Assembly (NCBI GenBank): GCA_016206805.1
Contig: JACQQX010000022.1
Location: 1 to 41,254, forward strand
Direction of reading: 5' to 3'
Source: Candidatus Omnitrophota bacterium
GTDB taxonomy: Bacteria > Omnitrophota > Gorgyraeia > 2-02-FULL-51-18
DNA: 41,254 nucleotides
Below, piece by piece: positions 23,598-41,254 of the stretch (position 1 is the first letter of the stretch; the number at the start of each line of letters is the position of its first letter). Made by a program: the position numbers and the translations under genes. The notes beneath the pieces are model-generated. The model saw only the letters and a program-made list of their open reading frames with translations, was not told the DNA's origin and did not search any database.

Positions 23598-23683
23598 GTC
23601 ATTGCGAGGAGGTCGCCTCGGCGGCCGACGAAGCAATCCCTGTTCAGAGATTGCTTCGGCCGCCGCGGCGGCCTCGCAATGAC
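23598..23683. repeat. Dispersed GTCATTGCGAG...GAAGCAATC palindromic repeat
   Basis: gtcattgcgaggaggtcgcctcggcggccgacgaagcaatc ... gattgcttcggccgccgcggcggcctcgcaatgac. Confidence 0.9.
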
Positions 23684-26945: not shown

Positions 26946-27138
26946 TGTCATTCCCGCAACAGTCATTGCGAGTACCTCACGTCATTGCGAGCTCCTCTGG
27001 TCATTGCGAGGTCGCCGAAGGCGACCGAAGCAATCTATGTCGTCTCTAGCAGAGTTTGCTTCGGTCGCCTTCGGCGACCTCGCAACCGCTCCGCTCCTCG
27101 CAACCGCTCCGCTCCTCGCAATGACAGTTTCGCAATGA
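26946..27138. repeat. Nested dispersed-repeat cluster
   Basis: Successive gtcattgcgag heads, 30-bp perfect inverted repeat 27004-27033/27056-27085, and an 18-bp tandem duplication aaccgctccgctcctcgc. Confidence 0.88.
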
Positions 27139-27142
27139 CGGC

Positions 27143-29407
27143 TTACTGTCCCTTCATCAAATTGAGCGCGCAGCCGGCCCTGAACCATTCGACTTGCTCG
27201 GCCGTGAAAGAATGGATCACCTCGATATTTTCCGTCTTTCCGTTCGCGTGCTTCAATACCATCATGAGCGATTGACCCGGCGCAAGACCCGTCAGCCCCA
27301 GGATGGAGACCTTATCATTCTCCACAATTTTGTCGTAGTCCGCGGGATTGGCGAAACGCAGCGGCAAAAGCCCCTGTTTTTTCAAGTTCGTCTCATGGAT
27401 GCGCGCGAAACTTTTGGCGATGATGGCTTTGCAGCCGAGGTGCCGCGGCGACATGGCGGCATGCTCGCGGCTTGAGCCCTCGCCGTAATTCTCATCGCCA
27501 ATCACCACCCAACCCAGCCCTTCCCTTTTGTAGTCGCGGGCGGCGTCAGCGGCATGGGTTTCCTTGCCGCCTTCCAGCCAATGTTTCACGTTACCCGGTC
27601 GTGTCGTCCAGGCGTTATTGGCGCCCAACAGCATGTTGTCGGAAATTTTATCCAGATGCCCGCGAAACTTGAGCCACGGCCCTGCCGGCGAAATATGGTC
27701 GGTGGTGCATTTGCCTTTGGCCTTTAAAAGGATGTAGAGATCTTCGAAGTCTTTCGTGTCCCAGGGATTAAAGGGTTCGAGTTTTTGAATCCGGTCGCTG
27801 ACCGCATTGATCAAAACCTGGACTTTTTCGCGCTCAGCCGGATCCAAGGGCGCGATAAACCCGCTCTCTCCGGCGGCATAACCCTTCGCGGGAAGCTCGG
27901 GCGACGACGGGGGCGTCAACAGCACTTCCTTACCATCAGGCGTTTTCAGTTTGTCCGTCAGAGGATTAAAATCCAGCCGGCCGGCGATGGCAAAAGCCGT
28001 CACGATCTCGGGAGACGCGATAAAAGCCAGGGTTTCCGTATTGCCGTCATTGCGCGCCGGGAAATTCCGGTTAAATGAAGTGATGATGGAGTTTTTTTCG
28101 CCTTCTTTGATGTCATCGCGTTTCCATTGCCCGATGCAGGGGCCGCAGGCATTGGCCAAAACCGTGCCGCCCATTTTTTCCAGGGAGGCCATCTGCCCGT
28201 CACGGCGAATGGTGTTGTGAATCTGGTCCGAACCCGGCGTGATGAGAAAATAACATTTGGACTTAAGACCCGCCTTTTTGGCCTGATCCGCCACATGCGC
28301 GGCGCGGCCGATGTCTTCATAGGAAGAATTAGTGCAGCTTCCGATCAGCGCGGCGCGGATCTCAACGGGATAATTCTTCTCACGAACCTCACGGGCAAAC
28401 TGAGAAACAGGACGCGCCAAATCAGGGGTGTGAGGACCCACCACATACGGCTCGAGCGTTGAAAGATCTATCTCAATCACCTCGTCATAAAAGTTTTTAG
28501 GGTCTCTCTCGACTTCGGGATCAGCCCCTAGAAACTCCCGGTGCTGATCAGCCAGCTCGGCCACCTGGCTTCTTTTGGTCATCTTGAGATAATCCGCCAT
28601 GCGGTCATCATAAGGAAAAACAGAGGTGGTCGCGCCCAGCTCCGCGCCCATATTGGCAATCGTTCCTTTGCCCGTGCAGCTGATGGATCGCGTGCCCGGA
28701 CCAAAGTATTCGACGATTTTGTCCGTGCCGCCTTTAACCGTGAGAAGACCGCAAAGTTTTAAAATCACGTCCTTGGCAGACGCCCAACCGCTCAAACTTC
28801 CTTTGAGGTGAACGCCGATGAGTTTGGGACATTTCACTTCCCAAGAAAGACCCGACATCACATCCGCCGCGTCAGCACCCCCTACACCGATGGCCAGCAT
28901 CCCCAGACCTCCGCCATTGGGTGTATGGGAATCGGTCCCGATCATGAGCCCACCCGGAAAAGCGTAATTTTCCAAAATCACCTGGTGAATAATACCCGCG
29001 CCCGGCTGCCAAAAACCGATGCCATAACGCATCGAAGCCGTTCTTAAAAAATCATAAACCTCTTGATTGACTTGGAGGGCTTTTTTGGTGTCTTCCAAGG
29101 CGCCATGCCGCGCCTGGATCAGGTGATCGCAGTGAATCGTGGTGGGAACCGCCGCGGATTGGCGCTCGGCCAGCATGAACTGCAAAAGCGCCATCTGCGC
29201 GGTGGCGTCCTGCATGGCCACGCGATCGGGATAAAGCGAGAGATAGCTGACGCCGCGCGTAAACTCCTGATTTTTCAGGTCTGACGCGTGATACGCCAGG
29301 ATCTTCTCAGACAGCGTCAAAGGCCGCGCGAGTTTCCTGCGCATCACGCCATCCCGCGCTGAAAAAGTCGCGTAAAGATTCTTTATCTGCGTTTCATATT
29401 CGTTCAT
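27143..29407 (-). CDS. Aconitate hydratase, mitochondrial-type subfamily
   Basis: [86 protein letters not shown]. Confidence 0.95.
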
Positions 29408-29424
29408 GCCGACCTCCAACGGGG

Positions 29425-29577
29425 TCATTGCGAGCGCAGCGCTGTGCCCGCCAGCGCTTTGTGGCGGGAAGCAATCTATGCGATCACAGAGATTGCTTCG
29501 TCGTCACTACGTTCCTCCTCGCAATGACCATGCCTATCAGGTCATTGCGAGGTCGCCGAAGGCGACCGAAGCAATCT
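29425..29577. repeat. Dispersed repeat array, copy 1 flanking the GIY-YIG gene
   Basis: Contains 29486-29577, nearly identical to 29867-29957. Confidence 0.9.
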
Positions 29578-29860
29578 ATGCCAACTGCAAATCTTTGTAT
29601 TCGGAATTAAATGACTCTATCAACTCTAGCTTTTTCCTGCGCGATCCCGCTTTAATTTGTTTCTCGCGCGAGATGGCGTTATAAGCATCATTGAACATCT
29701 CATAATAAACCAATTTTGTCACATTGTACTTGGATGTAAACCCTTCGACTAACTTATTTTTATGCTCATAAACCCTTTTGGGAAGATCGTTGGTCACGCC
29801 GGTATAAATAACCGTATCCCCAGGATTCATCATCATGTAAACATAATAATTTTTACCCAT
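29576..29860 (-). CDS. Small GIY-YIG nuclease-family protein
   Basis: KNYYVYMMMNPGDTVIYTGVTNDLPKRVYEHKN...FTSKYNVTKLVYYEMFNDAYNAISREKQIKAGSRRKKLELI. Confidence 0.93.
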   Translation of the reverse strand: MGKNYYVYMMMNPGDTVIYTGVTNDLPKRVYEHKNKLVEGFTSKYNVTKLVYYEMFNDAYNAISREKQIKAGSRRKKLELIESFNSEYKDLQLA

Positions 29861-29866
29861 GGCTTG

Positions 29867-30013
29867 ACAGAGATTGCTTCGTCGTCACTGCGTTCCTCCT
29901 CGCAATGACCATGCCTATCAGGTCATTGCGAGGTCGCCGCGGCGACCGAAGCAATCTCTGTAAGAATGATATGACAAAGATTGCTTCGGTCGCTTCGCTC
30001 TCTCGCAATGACG
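29867..30013. repeat. Dispersed repeat array, copy 2 flanking the GIY-YIG gene
   Basis: acagagattgcttcgtcgtcactgcgttcctcctcgcaatgaccatgcctatcaggtcattgcgaggtcgccgcggcgaccgaagcaatct, plus a further inverted copy to 30013. Confidence 0.9.
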
Positions 30014-31329: not shown

Positions 31330-34300
31330 TTAAGCCGCCGACCCCACGGCGGCCAGGCTGGCGACCACCTCAAAAACCTGTTGGCCGACGTTGAAGGCGA
31401 CCGGCTGAATGGATAATTGAATGCGGTAAATCCGCGCCGACCCGTTCTCGGTGTTGACCACAAGAAAATATTTTTCGAATAGAATCGTTACCAATATCCC
31501 CGTGCCGCGGTAAATCAGCCGGCTCAGAAGACGGCCGAGCGGCGAATCGATCCGATAGGTGCCCTTCTTCTCCAAAGCTTCCATGATGCATGATTCAATC
31601 TCTGCTTTGCCGGGATAAACACGATAGCCCTGGTCGGTGAACTCTCTGCCGGTCGGCATGATTCTGCCTCCCATCGCGGCGATCGTATTGACAAACGCCT
31701 GGTCTTCTCCGACATCCGCAAGAATAACCACATGATACCTCAGAAGCCGGCTTCTATGAATCGCTTGACCGTTCTCGCCGACAAAATATCCGCGTTTTTC
31801 GTTCAGTCGGACAAAACGGACAAATTCATGCTCAAAACCAAGGCCCGTTCCTTGTCCTCGTTCCCGAATCAAATTCTTTACCTCTTGAATTTTTGAAAGC
31901 AATCTATCCGGACTGCGCGTATCACGGTCAATAAGAACCAGCACCTGGCGGTTTTCTGTTTGAAGGGGCCCTAAACCTCTGAGAAATTGAATGAACATCT
32001 TGTCCCCAAAGCGCTCGTCCGCCATCACCTGCATGGCTATCTTGAGCGCTTCTTTATGTTCTTCGGTCACGGCCGGTGAGACCGGCGCTTTAATGGCCCG
32101 CCCCTTCGACTTGGCCTCAAGCCGCCGCTGGATGGCTTTCTGAAGGAGATAGCTTGTGATCGGAACTTCCCCAAAAACGGCATAATGACCTTCGGCATCT
32201 TTATCGTGTAAATCCAAAAGCTCAAAACGCGCGGGTCTTGTGCCGCGATCATCCAGAACAAGCCTGACAGCCACATGCCTGTTGATTTCCACATGAAACG
32301 GAATGATTCTGCCTCTTTTTAATTCGTCCGCCTGTCTCACAAACATATCGGCTAAAATTTCCCGCGCTTTAGGACCCACCTCAGCCGCGTTGGCCACCCG
32401 CTCCCGCGGCAAAACCGTTCCCAGCCTCAAGTCGCTCAAGAAGCTCCGCCCAGGCGCAATAAATTGCGCCCCTACGGGGCCCCTCCCGTCATTGCCAGCT
32501 GCCGCTGCGGGCCAGTCATTGCGAGGCGCCTTCGGCGCCGAAGCAATCTCTGCCCGCCTCAACGTGTCCCCCACCCCTGTCATTCCCGCCACCCCTGTCA
32601 TTCCCGCGGAAGCGGGAATCGGTTTTTCCATAACGCCACCGCTTGCCGCCGTCTTTGCCGCCCCGGGCGCCGGGAGCGTCACCGCCAATCCCGCCGCCCT
32701 TAAGCGCCTGCCCAACCCACCCGGCCCGGCGACCCGCGCGAGCCTGGCTGAAGACACTTCGGCCTCCGCCAGCCGTGCAGGGCGCCCGATCTCGTCGCTT
32801 TCACCGAACACGAAATAGACGTTCCCCAGCTGATCCGGATGGTTCAATAACCACATCATTTCATTTTTTGTGACACCGGCTTCCGCATGGGTATTGAGCC
32901 CTGATGGGACAACGAAAACGATCGCCCTATTATCAGCGATTATGCTTTCCATAAATCGATCATGGTTTTCTTCCGTGTCGCGAAGATGAAGGGCCCCATA
33001 GGCGTCCGGCCAACTGACAAGATTAAGGTCCGTTACCCATTTCTGCGTTTGGAGGTCGCTTAACCCCAATAAATAACCTCCGCTAGCCGCTTCGCTGTGA
33101 TTTCTTAGAAAATCATCTATAAGAAATACGCCTCTAGACCGTTCTTTAAGAATAGAAACAACCGCGGGGATCAAATTCTCATTTTTTTCATTGAGAGACG
33201 GGAGTAACTCCGATTGCACGGCCAAATCAGGAACCTCACTTTGGTCAACAGCTTGCAAGAGCTCAGGCGCAATAAATCGCGCCCCTACGGGTCCCCTCCC
33301 GTCATTGCGAGCCCCCGCTGCGGGCCAGTCATTGCGAGGCGCCTTCGGCGCCGAAGCAATCTCTGCCTGCCCCAACGGATCCACCGGCCCGGCGACCCGC
33401 GCGAGCCTGGCTGAAGACGTCTTAAAAAGCGGCTGCCCGATGTATAAGGGCTGTGCTTCAGGGTCATGGGCAAGCCCGCTAAGATCATTCACCTCCTTGA
33501 TGCCGAACCCGCCGATTTCGTCGCCGGTTGCTTTTTGAATAAATTCTTCATACGTCTGAGTGGTCATGTAGAACTTTTTTTGCTTAAGATAGGCGTTTGG
33601 AACTGATCCTTCAGCAGGAGAAAATTCGTAGTCTTTTTGCAGTACGCTCATCATAACCAGATTCCGCGTCAACGGGTGCGTCTGCTTCACATCCGGAAAA
33701 GTTTCAAAGAATTTATTCAATAACGGCCTCAAAAGTTGTCGGCCTCTCAACGCAGGATTGATATAGACCCCCCGCATCCCTTGAGGCCGGCCCGACGCAT
33801 CCGAGATCTCGATGCTGTAAGCGAATAAATCTGGCATGGCAAAGCCACCCGTTCGCTTGCTCTTATCAACCCATAATTCAAGCCGCCGGGCACCCTTTTC
33901 ATAGTCAATCACCTTGAAGGGTGTGAAAAACAGGTCATCAATCGCTAAGGGTTCCAACTCCTCCGTTCTGTCCTCAAAAGCATCCAGCATTAAAAACCAA
34001 TCGTATGTCCCCTTATCAACCGACAACTTAACAGCATTCTTGTCTCTCTCGCGTTTTAAAAATTCACTGCTTCCTTCCGGTGAGCTCGCATAACTTTGAA
34101 GCAAACGCGCGATGCGCGAAACAGCGCCATGAGCTATTTGCATTTGCTTGATCCATTCACCATATGAATCACCGTTTGAGAAGCCAAGATCCAATATCAT
34201 AGTGGGATAGCTATACATCGGGGCGGAATTATTGATAACATCAACCGTCTCAGCAGGCCAACCATTGGTCAGGGTTTCAATGACAACCCGCTCGCCGAGT

Positions 34301-37300
34301 TTGCTGAGATTTCTCTCATTCCGTTTTTTAGATGCCTCTTTACTGATGTTCTCCGCATCTTCTCGAATCGCGGCAAGCGCGGCTCTATCGGGGTTATTTG
34401 GATCTAGTTTATATAGATTTTCTCCAATTGGATTGAGTCCTTGCAGAAGGCCTTCAGACCATTCTCGGGCAAGGTTCTTCGCATTTCGTTCTTCTTCCGG
34501 CGTCCACCCTTCCGGCTTTTCATCGGTAATGAAATTGGATTTATCGCTCTCCGCCAGCCGCGCGCCGGCGCGCTGCAGAGGAATTTGAAATTTAGCGCCC
34601 TTATTTTCATGTCCTCCATTGACGTTCTGAACCTCTATTGTTTTCGCGCCATGCATTTTAACGATTTCCCACGCCTCCGCCATGCCAAGACCGCCTTTTT
34701 CTTCAACCGTCCCGTCAGGTGTTTTCTTGTTTTTTGCGGATATTCCCAGCTCGAACATCTTAGGTCTGCCGTTTGAGCTGGGTCTCAAAAACTCCGGCGG
34801 AATGCCCCCCGCATTATCAGTTATAACGAGAGCGACGCCCCCGCCCTTTTCCATCGCTTCGATCATGACGGTCACCTTCCTATTTGATCTCCCGGCAACA
34901 TCATCGGTATTTTTTATGATTTCCCCCAAAGCCCGGCGAAGCAAGTGAGGCTGCGCCAACACCCGCAAGCCTTTGTCTACACGGTTCTCGATCCCCACTT
35001 TCACTTTGGGCTCTTCGCCGGCTTGAAGCAGACCGATAAGATCTCCAATAAGATCCCGCAGACCGATCTCCTTCAAAATCAAATCGCCGTTGATAAACTC
35101 GATCTGTGATTCGATAATTTCTCTGATAATGGAAGCGCTTTTTATAATCCGCTCTTTCTGCCTTTTCTGCCTTGCATCCACGAGATCCTGCTTCTCGCAC
35201 CATTGGATGATAGTCTCCAGTTGAGCTTGATACGTCATGAGCGCTAAAACCAGCTTTTCCACTTGCTCAAAAGTGATAATAGGTCTGAAGTCGGTTCTGA
35301 AAGACCGAAAGCGCTCAATATCGGTTCTGAGCTTATTGTGAATATCGTTTGCGCGATTCACGGCGTTAAAAAATCCTTCATTATCGGCTTCAACCAGCTT
35401 GGCCCTGATCGCTCCCGCGTTTAAGCTGAGCGTATTTTGGGGCTGCGTTATCACATCCAGTAGGGCGTGACCCAGCACACTTCTCAGCGCAATCTCGGTT
35501 CGTTGAATACGCTCCAATTCCAAGCGGCGTTTTTCGATAAAATGATCAAGCGCGGGATCCGCTTCTCCCGTTTGCTTCTCGTTAACGACGCTATTAATGA
35601 AATCGGAGAAATCGCGATAGTACCCCTCGCCCACGCTGCCGATTTTTTCCCTATACAGACGCCGCTCACCGTATCGAATCCTTTCGATCGACCATGAATC
35701 TCCGGCGTCAACAACGCGCAGAACAGGGCTTATATTGCCATTTAAATTAAATTCAAAAAATGCAGGTTGTCGCGCCGACGTATGAAGCGGTAAACCTCTA
35801 ATCCACTCGAGAAACGGAGGGGTCATCAAGGCCACATCGTTCCGTGAGACTGCCGCCAGCCGGGCTCCGGCGGTCGCTTTTTTCAAGTGAACGCGGATGC
35901 GCTCAATCCGATTGAGAGCCTCTTGGCGAAGCCGTAAAGGATACGTTTTGCGGGCTTTTTTCGCGCGGAGATTCATTTTTGCGGTATTGAGATATTCCTC
36001 GGCGGCTTCCAAGCCGCCGCTTTTCATCGCGACAAAGGCGCCGTCAAGCTGGCTTAAAAGGCGGAGACGCAGGATCCATTCCTCCGCGATGGCATCCTCA
36101 TTTTCGAGTATTTCCGGGTAAGGCCTCAAAATCGGCGCGATCGCCCAATATTTTAAAAGCGCCCGTTCTTTATCAAAAACCCCGGGGGCCCAAGTGAGAT
36201 AGTAAAATCTGACGGCGGCTTCCGGATCCATCATATCGGGAAGCTTCGCCACTCCCGTTTCTTTATGCAGCCGATGATACAGATTGAGGAAAAAGACCTT
36301 GTCCGAAAACCGGCTGTCCGACGTTAAAAGAGGAACGACTCTGTCGACCAAAACCTGAAATTCTGGCCTTTGGACATCCACGGCCGCCGCCTCTTCCTCG
36401 CTGATATCCAGGCCCTGAAGAAGAACTTTCCGCGGCTTGGGAAACTGCAGGCTGTAGGCCACAATCGTCCTTATCGTCTCAGGCTCGATCTGCGCGTGGG
36501 TCAGGGCCGGGCCGCCTTTCTGCCGCTGTCTTTTCCATCGCGTCTCAAGAAATTCGATCAGCATCCTCAAGGCGACAACCCGATCCCTTTGCTCCTGCCC
36601 AAAAAGACCCGCCGCAAGCTCATCATATGCCCTCCCGTAGCTTTCGACCCTTTTCAGGATTTGATTTTCATAGGTTGAGGCAGGACGATCCGCGGCCGTT
36701 CGCGAGATAGCGGCCGGCGCAGGCAATGGCCCAATCTTCGGTCTTTTCGGCGGAGACGGCGCAAAAGCTGAAATGAGGAAAAGCGACACCATGAGGCCAA
36801 CCAGCGACGCGCCAACCCCGACCGCCGCCGCGGATGGCGGAATAAAATTCGGAAGACTCCTCGACCTGGCAAGCCTCGCGCCGACACCGGCCCCTTGCGG
36901 GGTCGTGTTGCGGGGCTGGATCATTTCAAATCTGACGACAGTCGGCTCGACGTTCGTCGGAGGCACGAACACACTAGAATCGGAAAGATCATTTCGAGTT
37001 TTGCCGTCCAAATTGAAATATTCGCTAACGGCAAATGGCTGCCGGTAGTCCGTTATGACACGGCCCATGGCTTCGCGCACCGCGACAAGATTTCGCCGAA
37101 GGGTGAGATTGAAAAGACGCCCCTTTTCATGCATAATTGGAACGAGGCGCTGGACTTTGCCGAGGCGGATTTGAGGGCCAACTGGCAGAATTACGTGGAT
37201 CGTTTCAAGAAGGAGCTGAAATGAGCGAGAAAGAGTTGTTTGAAAAAAATCTGGAATTATCAACTGAGTTTTCAAAATACCTGCTGACACATCCGGAACT

Positions 37301-40300
37301 TGAGACGCAGATCCCGGAAAATGCCCAAGTGGTGTTTCTCCTGGATAGTGACCCTGAGTTGAGCCGAAAGAACCAGGATCTGGCCCGAAAACAAAAGGCG
37401 CAAGGCCAGTCGGTTCTCTTTGTTCGGGTGAAAGGCCTCCGCGAGGAAGTGTCCCGCCTAATCGACCCCCATCTGGAACCAAGCCCGGCGCTCTAACTCC
37501 CACGCCCAGCCCTCTGTCCACTGGCCACTGATTTCTGGGTCCTGCCCCTTCGCCCGCCAGCCTCGCTCCCCTTCCGCCTTCCGTCTCCGGTCTTCCGCCT
37601 GTTTTTGTCGCCAGCCTCGCCGGTTTTCCGCTTCCCTCTTCCGTCTCACCTCTTGCCTGCTTTTGAGTCATCCGCGCGGCAAAAGTTGTGGTCGTACGGG
37701 ATGCATTGTGAGCGGTAAGCGCCACGGCCGCGACGTATTTCATCGCCTCCGCAAATGTCCCCACGGCGTCATGCGTAAAATCCGCCGAGTGCGCCACAAA
37801 ACCCTCATCCCATAACGCCTGTTCCTTCCGTCTCATAAGCTCTTCCAGCCAATGAGCCAGTTCATGAATGATGGTATTAGCGGCATTTCGTCCCAACCCT
37901 CGCGCCAATCTTTGGTTTAAAAACATCGCCTGCTTTCCACGATAGACTCCGAAAGCACCTGCAAAACTTACGTCACCGCCGACCAAAAGTATTTCTTGAA
38001 TCCCAAAATTTTTTCTTATGGAAGTGGCCATCCGAAGAAGCTCTTTTTCCTCGGAGGTATACTGATCTGGATCTATGACGATCTTTTCCGGGTTCCTCAT
38101 TAGCAAACGAAACGATTGAAAGAATAAAGCCTGACTCACTTTTTCTCCGCCATGGGGCAGATCTTCCAAAGCGGGAATCCTGCCAACGGAATAGCCATTG
38201 GCTCTCATGAGTGCCGCCTGTTCGCTGGCAAGAGATTCATCCACCTGTTTTTGTATTGCCAGTCGGCGTAGAAATAAGCTTGTTTTTCCCCCCTGTTCTA
38301 CGGTTACCTCGAGAAGAAGCATGAGCCTGACGAATTTTTTTTCTTTGTCCAATTTTCCGGGTTCGGTGAGAAAACTCGCCAATTCATTTAGACTGACACT
38401 CCGGTAGTTTTCTTGGTTTATTTTTGAAGCGAGCCCTATGACACCCCGGTCGCCGGTATCGATGGAATTCCAATAACTGTCGTTTGTCTCCCAATCGATC
38501 GGAAATCCTTCAAATACAAACTGAGGACTTGTCTGGGTCAATGTTTCGTGAACAATGGCTTTGTAAAACTCCGCCGCCACGTATTTTTGAATGGTAGGGA
38601 GATACTCGTCCTCATGCTCAAAAGCGCTACGATTTCGGATGAGCGGGAGAGGGATTTGGAGAATAACTCCGAGCTCTCTGAAATGTTTCCGAAGTGGCGC
38701 CGGCACGAGGGCCATGTACTCTTCTTTTAAATCTCGAACTCTTAAGCCCCTTTTATCGACGATTTGGAGCGGCATATCCCTAGCGCTTAAAATTCGGAAT
38801 TTGCCGAAATTACGAGCCTCTTTCTCTCCCGGTTTCACCGCAAAAAAATCAGACTCGCTTAATACCCGATAATCCACCGTCAATGGCTGTCTTTTCCCTT
38901 CCGAGTCGACAAAGTAAATATGAAAATCATCGTGCTGGGCAAGACCGGCGAATGTTTTCCACGCCCTATGGGAAAGCATTTGATCCAGTTCCGGCACGGT
39001 ATTTTCAACCAGCTTCACGCGCCGGACCGTGTTGCCCATTGGCACCCCTTCCAAATTAGTAATACGCCTTCTACCCGTCAGTGCCAATCTTTTAGGAGCG
39101 CCTGAATCATCCTTGGTCAGGGTAAATGTATACAGGTAAGCCCTGTGAGAATTTCGATTGATAATCTCCACCCTGTCCGTTCCTTGGTGTCTTGTATATT
39201 TGCCCGTTCCGAAGAATCCAGCCAGGTCTATTTGAGCCCCTTCTGCTTTGGTGGATTTAGGAATAATGAGCGCATCTTCCTCATCAGCGCCGGGTCCATT
39301 ATCGGAAGCTTCTTCCACGTACTCTTCTATGCCGTCATCTCTCTTCTGGAGATAATAATCGACAACAAGTTCTCCTTTTTGTCCAAGCGTCGCGTCCCAA
39401 GAGTTTTGGGTGATTTCAGCGGTATGAGCCCCTTCTTCACGCTGGACTGTGACATTCTTTAAAATTTCAGCTTCCCATGCATCAGAACGGGGTGGCAAAT
39501 CATCTAAATTTTCAAAGAGTCCATCGAGTCCATCGCTCGTCTCATAGCCACCCTTTTTTTGATGTTGTTGGATCCATTTCATAATTTGAGATATCTCAAT
39601 GCCATCGACCGGTAGGGGAGTATCTTCTCCCTCAGGGACAAATCGTTCCGCCCGGCGAAGTTCAGGTACATCATTTGAAAGAAAGACCATAAACGGCCTT
39701 GCCGCTCCCAGCTCATGGGGCTTGTCGGGCCAGTCCAAATAATCCATCGCTTGCCTTATCGGAAGTGAGGAAAAAGCTCTCCATAACTGGTTCAAAAATG
39801 CTTTTTTTGTTTCAGGCTTTTTATCCAAAATGCGACTTAATTGTCCCGACGCCTCAGGTTTTTTCTTTATCGCCTCCGACAAAAACTGAAGGATGTGAGT
39901 TGTGTCCGACAATCCCGCCCAGCCTTCCGTAGCTTCTTCGAGAGCCTCGACAAAATCACTCACGGTTGAAATCATGGCCAAATGTTCCCGGCTATGCAGG
40001 GTAAAACCATAAGCGAGGCTCTTAAAAAGCCTCTCGTTAATATCCTCCTGCCCGATGTCCAATTCGCCTTTTGCCGCCAAGTCGAATAAACTCTTAAAAA
40101 GGTTCAAGGTGTAATTTTTTTGGTCTTGAAATGGTTCCACGGATATGCTCGAGGCCTGGGAAGCAAGATAAGCCCCCAAAAGCTGGGTGATCTTTTGCAT
40201 TCTCAAGCGAAAAATCTTAAACGGTAAGTCTGACGCGCTTAAATCCAGCTCATGACCTTCGGCAGCAAGTTGAAGCCTGTGAAGAATCTCTGTTTCTTGC

Positions 40301-41254
40301 TTTTCATAAAGAGCGTTAATCAACGGTTCAAGTAGACGCAAGACCTCTTCCCTGAATTCGGTCGGAATGAGCTCAAAATAGGACTCATAAGCTGCCCTTG
40401 CTTCCTCGATAAATTTATCGCGCACGGGAAAAACATGATCGGTCCACAGTGTTTGAATTTTGGATTCGGGACCGGTGATGGAGGAGACGGCAGGGCCGAG
40501 GCCTGGGAGGGCATCCAGCTTTCCCGCTTTGGCTTTTGTTAGGAGAAGATCGATCGCTTTTTCTTTCTTTACGGGATCGGTGATGGAAGGGACGGCAGGG
40601 CCGAGGCCCCAGAGGGCAGGCCCATGTCCCGCTTTGGCATTTGTTAGGAGAAGATCGATCGCTTTTTCTTTCTTTACGGGGTCGGTGATGGAAGGGACGG
40701 CCAGGCCGAGCGGCCAAAGGGCGTCCTCATCTTCCGCTTCGGCTTTTGTTAGGAGAAGATCGATCGCTTTTTCTTTCTTTACGGGGTCGGTGATGGAAGG
40801 GACGGCAGGGCCGAGGCCTACGAGGGCGCCCGGCCATTCCAATAGAGCTCGTGCTAAGAGCATATCGATCGCTCTTTCTTTCTTTACGGGATCGGTGATG
40901 GAAGGGACGGCAGGGCCGAGGCCTGCGAAGGCGAACTTGTCTCCCCCTATGGCTTTTGTTAGGAGAAGATCAATCGCTTTTTCTTTCTTTACGGGATCGG
41001 TGATGGAAGGGACGGCCAGGCCGAGGCCTAGGCGGGCCTGCCGCTTTCCCGCTTCGGCTTCTGTTAGGAGAAGATCGATCGCTCTTTCTTTCTTTACGGG
41101 ATCGGTGATGGAAGGGACGGCAGGGCCGAGGCCCCGGCGGGCAGGCCCATCTCCCGCTTTGGCTTTTGTTAGGAGAAGATCGATCGCTCTTTCTTTCTTT
41201 ACGGGATCGGTGATGGAAGGGACGGCAGGGCCGAGGCCCAGGAGGGCAGATTCA
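31330..41254 (-). CDS. Giant multidomain protein (partial at its N-terminus)
   Basis: Uninterrupted frame from the TAA at 31330 to the window edge. The track starts it at an internal Met (40863), but the frame stays open through more 105-bp repeats. Contains Sel1/TPR-like repeats, GHKL ATPase, HExxH motif, TM segment, histidine-kinase-like ATPase, GNAT-like segment and GARLA linkers. Confidence 0.85.
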   Translation of the reverse strand, partial: ESALLGLGPAVPSITDPVKKERAIDLLLTKAKAGDGPARRGLGPAVPSITDPVKKERAIDLLLTEAEAGKRQARLGLGLAVPSITDPVKKEKAIDLLLTKAIGGDKFAFAGLGPAVPSITDPVKKERAIDMLLARALLEWPGALVGLGPAVPSITDPVKKEKAIDLLLTKAEAEDEDALWPLGLAVPSITDPVKKEKAIDLLLTNAKAGHGPALWGLGPAVPSITDPVKKEKAIDLLLTKAKAGKLDALPGLGPAVSSITGPESKIQTLWTDHVFPVRDKFIEEARAAYESYFELIPTEFREEVLRLLEPLINALYEKQETEILHRLQLAAEGHELDLSASDLPFKIFRLRMQKITQLLGAYLASQASSISVEPFQDQKNYTLNLFKSLFDLAAKGELDIGQEDINERLFKSLAYGFTLHSREHLAMISTVSDFVEALEEATEGWAGLSDTTHILQFLSEAIKKKPEASGQLSRILDKKPETKKAFLNQLWRAFSSLPIRQAMDYLDWPDKPHELGAARPFMVFLSNDVPELRRAERFVPEGEDTPLPVDGIEISQIMKWIQQHQKKGGYETSDGLDGLFENLDDLPPRSDAWEAEILKNVTVQREEGAHTAEITQNSWDATLGQKGELVVDYYLQKRDDGIEEYVEEASDNGPGADEEDALIIPKSTKAEGAQIDLAGFFGTGKYTRHQGTDRVEIINRNSHRAYLYTFTLTKDDSGAPKRLALTGRRRITNLEGVPMGNTVRRVKLVENTVPELDQMLSHRAWKTFAGLAQHDDFHIYFVDSEGKRQPLTVDYRVLSESDFFAVKPGEKEARNFGKFRILSARDMPLQIVDKRGLRVRDLKEEYMALVPAPLRKHFRELGVILQIPLPLIRNRSAFEHEDEYLPTIQKYVAAEFYKAIVHETLTQTSPQFVFEGFPIDWETNDSYWNSIDTGDRGVIGLASKINQENYRSVSLNELASFLTEPGKLDKEKKFVRLMLLLEVTVEQGGKTSLFLRRLAIQKQVDESLASEQAALMRANGYSVGRIPALEDLPHGGEKVSQALFFQSFRLLMRNPEKIVIDPDQYTSEEKELLRMATSIRKNFGIQEILLVGGDVSFAGAFGVYRGKQAMFLNQRLARGLGRNAANTIIHELAHWLEELMRRKEQALWDEGFVAHSADFTHDAVGTFAEAMKYVAAVALTAHNASRTTTTFAARMTQKQARGETEEGSGKPARLATKTGGRPETEGGRGARLAGEGAGPRNQWPVDRGLGVGVRAPGLVPDGGRLGGTLPRGGLSPEQREPTGLAPFVFGPDPGSFGSTQGHYPGETPLGHFPGSASQVPDVSAGILKTQLIIPDFFQTTLSRSFQLLLETIHVILPVGPQIRLGKVQRLVPIMHEKGRLFNLTLRRNLVAVREAMGRVITDYRQPFAVSEYFNLDGKTRNDLSDSSVFVPPTNVEPTVVRFEMIQPRNTTPQGAGVGARLARSRSLPNFIPPSAAAVGVGASLVGLMVSLFLISAFAPSPPKRPKIGPLPAPAAISRTAADRPASTYENQILKRVESYGRAYDELAAGLFGQEQRDRVVALRMLIEFLETRWKRQRQKGGPALTHAQIEPETIRTIVAYSLQFPKPRKVLLQGLDISEEEAAAVDVQRPEFQVLVDRVVPLLTSDSRFSDKVFFLNLYHRLHKETGVAKLPDMMDPEAAVRFYYLTWAPGVFDKERALLKYWAIAPILRPYPEILENEDAIAEEWILRLRLLSQLDGAFVAMKSGGLEAAEEYLNTAKMNLRAKKARKTYPLRLRQEALNRIERIRVHLKKATAGARLAAVSRNDVALMTPPFLEWIRGLPLHTSARQPAFFEFNLNGNISPVLRVVDAGDSWSIERIRYGERRLYREKIGSVGEGYYRDFSDFINSVVNEKQTGEADPALDHFIEKRRLELERIQRTEIALRSVLGHALLDVITQPQNTLSLNAGAIRAKLVEADNEGFFNAVNRANDIHNKLRTDIERFRSFRTDFRPIITFEQVEKLVLALMTYQAQLETIIQWCEKQDLVDARQKRQKERIIKSASIIREIIESQIEFINGDLILKEIGLRDLIGDLIGLLQAGEEPKVKVGIENRVDKGLRVLAQPHLLRRALGEIIKNTDDVAGRSNRKVTVMIEAMEKGGGVALVITDNAGGIPPEFLRPSSNGRPKMFELGISAKNKKTPDGTVEEKGGLGMAEAWEIVKMHGAKTIEVQNVNGGHENKGAKFQIPLQRAGARLAESDKSNFITDEKPEGWTPEEERNAKNLAREWSEGLLQGLNPIGENLYKLDPNNPDRAALAAIREDAENISKEASKKRNERNLSKLGERVVIETLTNGWPAETVDVINNSAPMYSYPTMILDLGFSNGDSYGEWIKQMQIAHGAVSRIARLLQSYASSPEGSSEFLKRERDKNAVKLSVDKGTYDWFLMLDAFEDRTEELEPLAIDDLFFTPFKVIDYEKGARRLELWVDKSKRTGGFAMPDLFAYSIEISDASGRPQGMRGVYINPALRGRQLLRPLLNKFFETFPDVKQTHPLTRNLVMMSVLQKDYEFSPAEGSVPNAYLKQKKFYMTTQTYEEFIQKATGDEIGGFGIKEVNDLSGLAHDPEAQPLYIGQPLFKTSSARLARVAGPVDPLGQAEIASAPKAPRNDWPAAGARNDGRGPVGARFIAPELLQAVDQSEVPDLAVQSELLPSLNEKNENLIPAVVSILKERSRGVFLIDDFLRNHSEAASGGYLLGLSDLQTQKWVTDLNLVSWPDAYGALHLRDTEENHDRFMESIIADNRAIVFVVPSGLNTHAEAGVTKNEMMWLLNHPDQLGNVYFVFGESDEIGRPARLAEAEVSSARLARVAGPGGLGRRLRAAGLAVTLPAPGAAKTAASGGVMEKPIPASAGMTGVAGMTGVGDTLRRAEIASAPKAPRNDWPAAAAGNDGRGPVGAQFIAPGRSFLSDLRLGTVLPRERVANAAEVGPKAREILADMFVRQADELKRGRIIPFHVEINRHVAVRLVLDDRGTRPARFELLDLHDKDAEGHYAVFGEVPITSYLLQKAIQRRLEAKSKGRAIKAPVSPAVTEEHKEALKIAMQVMADERFGDKMFIQFLRGLGPLQTENRQVLVLIDRDTRSPDRLLSKIQEVKNLIRERGQGTGLGFEHEFVRFVRLNEKRGYFVGENGQAIHRSRLLRYHVVILADVGEDQAFVNTIAAMGGRIMPTGREFTDQGYRVYPGKAEIESCIMEALEKKGTYRIDSPLGRLLSRLIYRGTGILVTILFEKYFLVVNTENGSARIYRIQLSIQPVAFNVGQQVFEVVASLAAVGSAA
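32453..32554. repeat. Translated dispersed-repeat array, copy B
   Basis: ggcgcaataaattgcgcccctacggggcccctcccgtcattgccagctgccgctgcgggccagtcattgcgaggcgccttcggcgccgaagcaatctctgcc. Confidence 0.92.
33266..33367. repeat. Translated dispersed-repeat array, copy A
   Basis: Same about 102-bp sequence with about 4 differences from 32453-32554. Confidence 0.92.
34570..35500 (-). other. Histidine-kinase-like region with HATPase domain inside the giant ORF
   Basis: LGHALLDVITQPQNTLSLNAG; LRRALGEIIKNTDDVAG; LVITDNAGGIPPEF; EEKGGLGMAEAWEIVKMHG. Confidence 0.85.
36895..37224 (+). CDS. DUF7718-like small protein, antisense inside the giant ORF
   Basis: IGKIISSFAVQIEIFANGKWLPVVRYDTAHGFAHRDKISPKGEIEKTPLF...NEALDFAEADLRANWQNYVDRFKKELK; stop overlaps the next gene's ATG (ATGA). 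Start uncertain. Confidence 0.65.
   Translation: MRGRVAGLDHFKSDDSRLDVRRRHEHTRIGKIISSFAVQIEIFANGKWLPVVRYDTAHGFAHRDKISPKGEIEKTPLFMHNWNEALDFAEADLRANWQNYVDRFKKELK
37221..37496 (+). CDS. DUF5647-like small protein, antisense inside the giant ORF
   Basis: MSEKELFEKNLELSTEFSKYLLTHPELETQIPENAQVVFLLDSDPELSRKNQDLARKQKAQGQSVLFVRVKGLREEVSRLIDPHLE; AAGGAGCTGAA ribosome-binding site upstream. Confidence 0.75.
   Translation: MSEKELFEKNLELSTEFSKYLLTHPELETQIPENAQVVFLLDSDPELSRKNQDLARKQKAQGQSVLFVRVKGLREEVSRLIDPHLEPSPAL
37852..37866 (-). other. HExxH metallopeptidase-like motif in the giant ORF
   Basis: NTIIHELAHWLEELM. Confidence 0.7.
38550..39460 (-). other. GHKL (Hsp90/MORC-like) ATPase region in the giant ORF
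   Basis: HTAEITQNSWDATLG (N box), EASDNGPGAD (DNGxG), AGFFGTGKYTRHQG (G2-like). Confidence 0.75.
40466..41254. repeat. Tandem 105-bp (35-aa) Sel1/TPR-like repeats
   Basis: Landmark acggg[a/g]tcggtgatggaagggacgg recurs at 40571, 40676, 40781, 40886, 40991, 41096, 41201, exact 105-bp period; a degenerate unit near 40466; continues off the window. Confidence 0.96.

Follow-up and report, generated by a model that had tools for sequence, protein, structure and literature searches.

The window, a stretch of 41,254 nucleotides, is the entire contig C4 of an Omnitrophota genome, and its end falls inside a tandem repeat array encoded by one giant ORF. The features of this ORF, on the window and on the contig C69 that appears to continue it, are as follows.

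31330-41253, minus: C-terminal 3,307 codons of the giant ORF, an open frame
34602-34951, minus: HATPase_c (GHKL ATPase) in the same ORF, limits approximate (Pfam PF02518, E=3.4e-8, residues 1017-1127 of window:34600-37998)
40474-40503, minus: C-terminal half unit GLGPAVSSIT, the end of the array
40504-41238, minus: seven full units of 35 aa (105 bp), no indels (Tandem Repeats Finder and unit alignment)
41134-41160, minus: variable block 1, KAGDGPARR
41029-41055, minus: variable block 2, EAGKRQARL
40924-40950, minus: variable block 3, IGGDKFAFA
40819-40845, minus: variable block 4, LLEWPGALV
40714-40740, minus: variable block 5, EAEDEDALW
40609-40635, minus: variable block 6, KAGHGPALW
40504-40530, minus: variable block 7, KAGKLDALP
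41239-41253 (listed to 41254), minus: end of the preceding unit (ESALL); the array goes on into contig C69
C69 17189-25789, plus: putative remainder of the giant ORF, assigned by an 88-base overlap and a continuous frame

Tandem Repeats Finder gives a period of 105 bp, 7.5 copies and 0% indels at 40467-41249. This bears out the preliminary description of the locus, which spoke of seven units of exact period; the seven nine-codon sequences that it quoted are correct to the letter and in their order, and the Ala (GCC) that it regarded as fixed at the seventh position of the block is invariant in all seven units. Its near-constant frame stands at a mean identity between units of 92% for nucleotides and 89% for amino acids over the 26 codons (n=7), with the reservation that K/R, P/L, L/M, T/A and G/P replacements and a few synonymous changes occur there. 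The second codon before the variable block also varies (K/E/R/N), and unit 4 is the most divergent of the seven. Inverted repeats were sought within the array and none was found. A 265-codon open frame runs antisense to the array (40460-41254, plus strand); as a candidate gene it was set aside, being taken as a by-product of the 105-bp (3n) period, and it is the minus frame that holds the 3,307-codon ORF.

In a protein search of the same genome the array was found on only one other contig, at the end of C69. C69 and C4 share an exact terminal overlap of 88 bases, 16 of which belong to a variable block, and when the two are joined across it the frame runs without a stop for 6,147 codons. The join would make one giant ORF of about 6,145 aa, counted from the ATG. 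Extension of the contig had been proposed as the way to further units, and the array does carry on past 41254; C69 supplies one more unit, so that a direct join gives eight units plus the half unit, and further identical units may have been lost by collapse of short reads. A signal-peptide-like segment (MRKIKVVLKSIALVLVAAFVVQELAWAAP) opens the giant protein, which has four further hydrophobic segments and, judged from its sequence, is probably exported. Besides the HATPase_c match listed above, which lies over its cut-off, Pfam scans placed a second, weak HATPase_c upstream of the array and RamC_N just under the cut-off, and the other matches in the whole ORF were at chance level. A PDB sequence search with the regions flanking the array returned no significant relative. 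Short linkers (TGGRPETEGxRLA, GARLA and GARMA) recur between regions of the giant protein (31330-41253, minus, and L006).

The first 600 or so residues of the giant protein form a domain that is present in 16 of the 16 genomes of the order that were searched, often in many copies, and for which a Pfam search gave no match over a cut-off. Named records with this domain are nearly all from Omnitrophota (contigs CAMDWQ01 of G003, JAHFFN01 of G011 and JAJVIE01 of G012 among them); the rest are a few from Elusimicrobia and isolated ones under other labels. A homologous domain starts long ORFs, and the present ORF belongs with these Omnitrophota giant ORFs by its shared N-terminal domain. The domain (IIHIQDAHSNLSGQEN ... 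GGYHTxHL) gives up to 39 matches per genome (own genome, G001 to G015) and sits in ORFs of up to 12,701 codons.

The array was modelled by AlphaFold2 from a single sequence as an alpha/alpha solenoid, with a pLDDT in the array of about 90-96. In the predicted unit, helices of 16 and 13 residues alternate with two turns of 3 residues each, the longer helix coming first. In the model the variable codons begin with the final residue of the long helix, take in the whole of the ensuing turn and end five residues into the next helix, and they are predicted to align along one edge of the solenoid. A profile built from these units and those of G003 matched, among solved structures, 8sxq (E=8.2e-8), c5321 (4bwr; 1e-6), SEL1L (3e-6) and then 6ork, and the alignment pairs the conserved A-x3-L-G of Sel1-like repeats (SLR) with the fixed Ala of the block and the L-G after it. 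The earlier equation of the fixed Ala with the Sel1-like Ala is therefore supported by the profile (E=8e-8) but not by Pfam: the Sel1 family (PF08238) has no match in the array nor anywhere in 13 family genomes, and a Pfam scan of the array found no family. The SLR proteins LpnE (6deh), c5321 (4bwr) and SEL1L (5b26) are among the top six Foldseek matches, with weak E values and mixed neighbours, and the structural neighbours given by VIA-align are general alpha-solenoids.

With the Sel1-like repeat proteins c5321, HcpC, LpnE and SEL1L the array has in common the alpha/alpha solenoid, which here is a predicted superhelix, the A-x3-L-G motif and the A...G spacing (PMC3851747, PMC4746701). It differs from them in escaping detection by Pfam Sel1 and in having units that are nearly identical in DNA. 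Sel1-like repeats are 36-38 aa long with an intra-repeat loop of about 7 residues, whereas the present unit has 35 aa and both of its turns have 3 residues. The 7-residue loop occurs in most repeats of c5321, but its atypical repeat SLR9 is laid out 13/3/16/3 (PMC3851747), and this equals the layout predicted for the array unit. The array is Sel1/TPR-like and is kept out of PF08238.

Variation among the units is unevenly spread. Mean identity between units falls to 59% for nucleotides and 32% for amino acids in the nine-codon block (n=7), and the nucleotide differences per site are 0.413 there as against 0.080 in the frame. The strongest contiguous run of nine codons, codons 20-28, holds 64% of all pairwise variation and coincides exactly with the nine codons to which the preliminary description had confined it. 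When column diversities were permuted, a contiguous nine-codon run that strong, at any position, arose with p=0.001, which speaks against variation being equal across the unit; the diversities of block and frame also differ by the Mann-Whitney test (p=0.00025, or 0.00019 without unit 4). The proposal of a homogenised scaffold with concentrated variation is thus supported, for a comparison that covers seven units from one MAG, the one genome for its genus.

Our preferred reading, to which we would give a probability of roughly 0.5, is that of a divergent Sel1/TPR-type solenoid whose scaffold is homogenised by recombination and one recognition edge of which is under diversifying selection. The recombination, the selection, the binding and its partner are what we infer, and they would act as follows. 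The near-identical 105-bp units would be a substrate for unequal crossing-over or gene conversion, which would keep the scaffold uniform and leave the number of units changeable. Point substitutions at edge residues would be retained through diversifying selection, and the edge, as a working hypothesis, may bind a varying partner, for instance a molecule on the surface of a host or prey cell. The variable patch would then be a diversified binding surface.

The strongest rival is relaxed constraint on tolerant turns. Here a recent tandem expansion has frames homogenised by conversion and edges that tolerate change, and the block is a relaxed spacer with neither diversifying selection nor a role in recognition; we regard this as the less favoured reading but as a serious possibility. 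The variable sites are indeed turn and helix-end residues, which are structurally tolerant, and the buried-type positions A19, A26, L30 and G31 are conserved. A relaxed spacer predicts a pN about equal to pS, however, and the block has a pN of 0.47, a pS of 0.24 and a pN/pS of 1.95, a Nei-Gojobori style estimate from seven units only, based on about 35 pairwise synonymous differences in non-independent pairs. Neutral evolution simulated on random trees, with the total number of differences matched, reached 1.95 in 0.6% of runs (p about 0.006). The corresponding values in the frame are 0.063, 0.125 and 0.50. Also against a relaxed spacer, the third codon base at codons 20, 21, 22 and 24 is constant across units despite amino-acid change, so that cassette exchange or undirected hypermutation fits less well than stepwise replacement under selection. 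The synonymous divergence is in its favour: pS in the block is twice that in the frame, and gene conversion that spares the block, or multiple hits, may therefore explain part of the contrast.

Related arrays were found by profile search in only one other of the 384 genomes of the class, that of G003 (CAMDWQ01, Omnitrophica LH-05nov19-156), which is of the same family but another genus. They lie in a 3,443-aa ORF that has the same N-terminal domain (29% identity over 608 columns), within a contig of 167,291 bases in which the order of units is resolved. The unit has 34 aa and a different frame (SLTxSQQSEIYPILKT), and is about 27-35% identical to the 35-aa unit. Identical arrays in diverged strains would have spoken against recent diversification; this relative, from another genus and not a strain, has a different array. 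The per-position diversities of the two arrays are correlated (Spearman 0.65, p=3e-5), a value reached by none of 33 circular shifts; both vary at matching turn and helix-end sites, and the core Ala, Leu and Gly are mostly kept. The differences per site in G003 are 0.26 in the frame and 0.42 in the block. The G003 arrays are older or less homogenised, and the codon-position pattern of their block is flat (0.31/0.38/0.32), as a relaxed spacer would have it.

Beyond G003, a peptide-pattern search of genome and viral contigs found no relatives. When 1.3 Mb of giant-ORF loci, taken from this genome and from others (Omnitrophota and some Elusimicrobia), were scanned for tandem arrays, no such array came up, which makes the trait rare and patchy, and a search of the same loci with the repeat profile added nothing further. 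The sole find of the scan was an unrelated low-complexity PGGGQQMGNR array (PGPQGGPGGGQQMGNR), in a short ORF at L058 1700-1936 (G000:C55).

It is also conceivable that the assembly produced the pattern: if identical units were collapsed by short reads, and strains perhaps merged as well, only units with distinct blocks would be left as separate copies and the diversity would be exaggerated. The contig ends in the array, its overlap with the partner contig is only 88 bases, the 78-bp shared frame is near the scale at which reads become ambiguous, and no two of the seven units are identical. We nevertheless consider this explanation unlikely: the blocks must still exist somewhere in the sample, and the G003 arrays vary at the same positions in the interior of a 167-kb contig. 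Slightly less likely again is that the giant ORF is decaying and the array is filler without a function. The array contains no Pfam domain, and palindromic repeat elements are read in frame elsewhere in the ORF, but the ORF stays open for about 6,145 codons, the pN/pS in the constant part of the units is 0.5, the predicted fold is confident and the diverged relative in G003 retains the same pattern. Targeted mutagenesis by a diversity-generating retroelement, which the packing of variation into a short block might recall, was rejected as highly improbable, as the 88%-complete genome has no reverse transcriptase (PF00078) and no second DNA copy as a possible template, and the changes are not adenine-specific.

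The preferred reading, a homogenised scaffold with a diversified edge, has parallels in known proteins. TAL-effector repeats are helical units of 34-35 aa with a near-identical scaffold, in which two variable residues read DNA. They resemble the array in unit length, in scaffold and in having a variable block per repeat; the likeness is one of layout and does not extend to DNA binding. The repeats of fungal NOD-like receptors (NLR), which are of WD, ANK and TPR type as in Podospora HET-D/E, are near-identical within one gene, have a few positions each under diversifying selection, as is proposed for the array, include TPR/ANK solenoids and are proposed to undergo concerted evolution (PMC4986451, PMC12222747). 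In fungal TPR/ANK units of high internal conservation the positively selected sites lie on the binding face (PMC4986451). These receptors are, however, eukaryotic, intracellular and equipped with a NOD ATPase, whereas the protein carrying the array is bacterial and probably exported, and a Pfam scan of the whole giant ORF found no NACHT or NB-ARC. The variable block is contiguous here (turn plus helix ends), in contrast to the concave-helix positions of the fungal repeats, and the mean amino acid identity of whole units, at 74% (frame 89%), falls short of the >85% over >=100 aa by which the NLR repeats are defined.

The Omnitrophota have giant proteins that rank with the largest known from bacteria and whose functions are obscure. 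In the passages of PMC10066038 that deal with them, the giant ORFs of this phylum resemble the present one in their signal-peptide-like start and few annotated domains; they are called poorly conserved, and those passages make no mention of homogenised repeat arrays. The same passages report host-dependent lifestyles and giant-ORF adhesins and suggest a role in cell-cell contact. Taken with the signal-peptide-like start of the protein and the fungal parallel, this suggests that the protein may recognise a partner which varies and which sits on another cell. Tentatively, and with more doubt than attaches to the preferred reading itself, a recombining array in a giant exported protein of some Omnitrophota, its scaffold homogenised and one edge diversified from unit to unit, might be a bacterial counterpart, by analogy, of the fungal NLR recognition repeats, serving in host or prey recognition. 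If so, the scaffold-constant, edge-variable mode of the fungal NLRs would have arisen in bacteria with Sel1/TPR-like repeats as its scaffold. Repeats that are both homogenised and diversified draw attention to the part of such a protein where contact with a changing partner may take place. The array, a compact domain of 300 residues, is suited to expression and testing.

Palindromic repeat elements (GTCATTGCGAGG...CGAAGCAATCTCTG) were also observed. They lie inside the giant ORF at 32448-32594 and 33261-33407, and between genes or at gene edges at 23599-23683, 26962-27143 and 29423-30011. Those within the giant ORF are translated in frame (e.g. AEIASAPKAPRNDW), and one more is found in the N-terminal domain on C69. 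They are reminiscent of the Rickettsia palindromic elements that occur inside genes.
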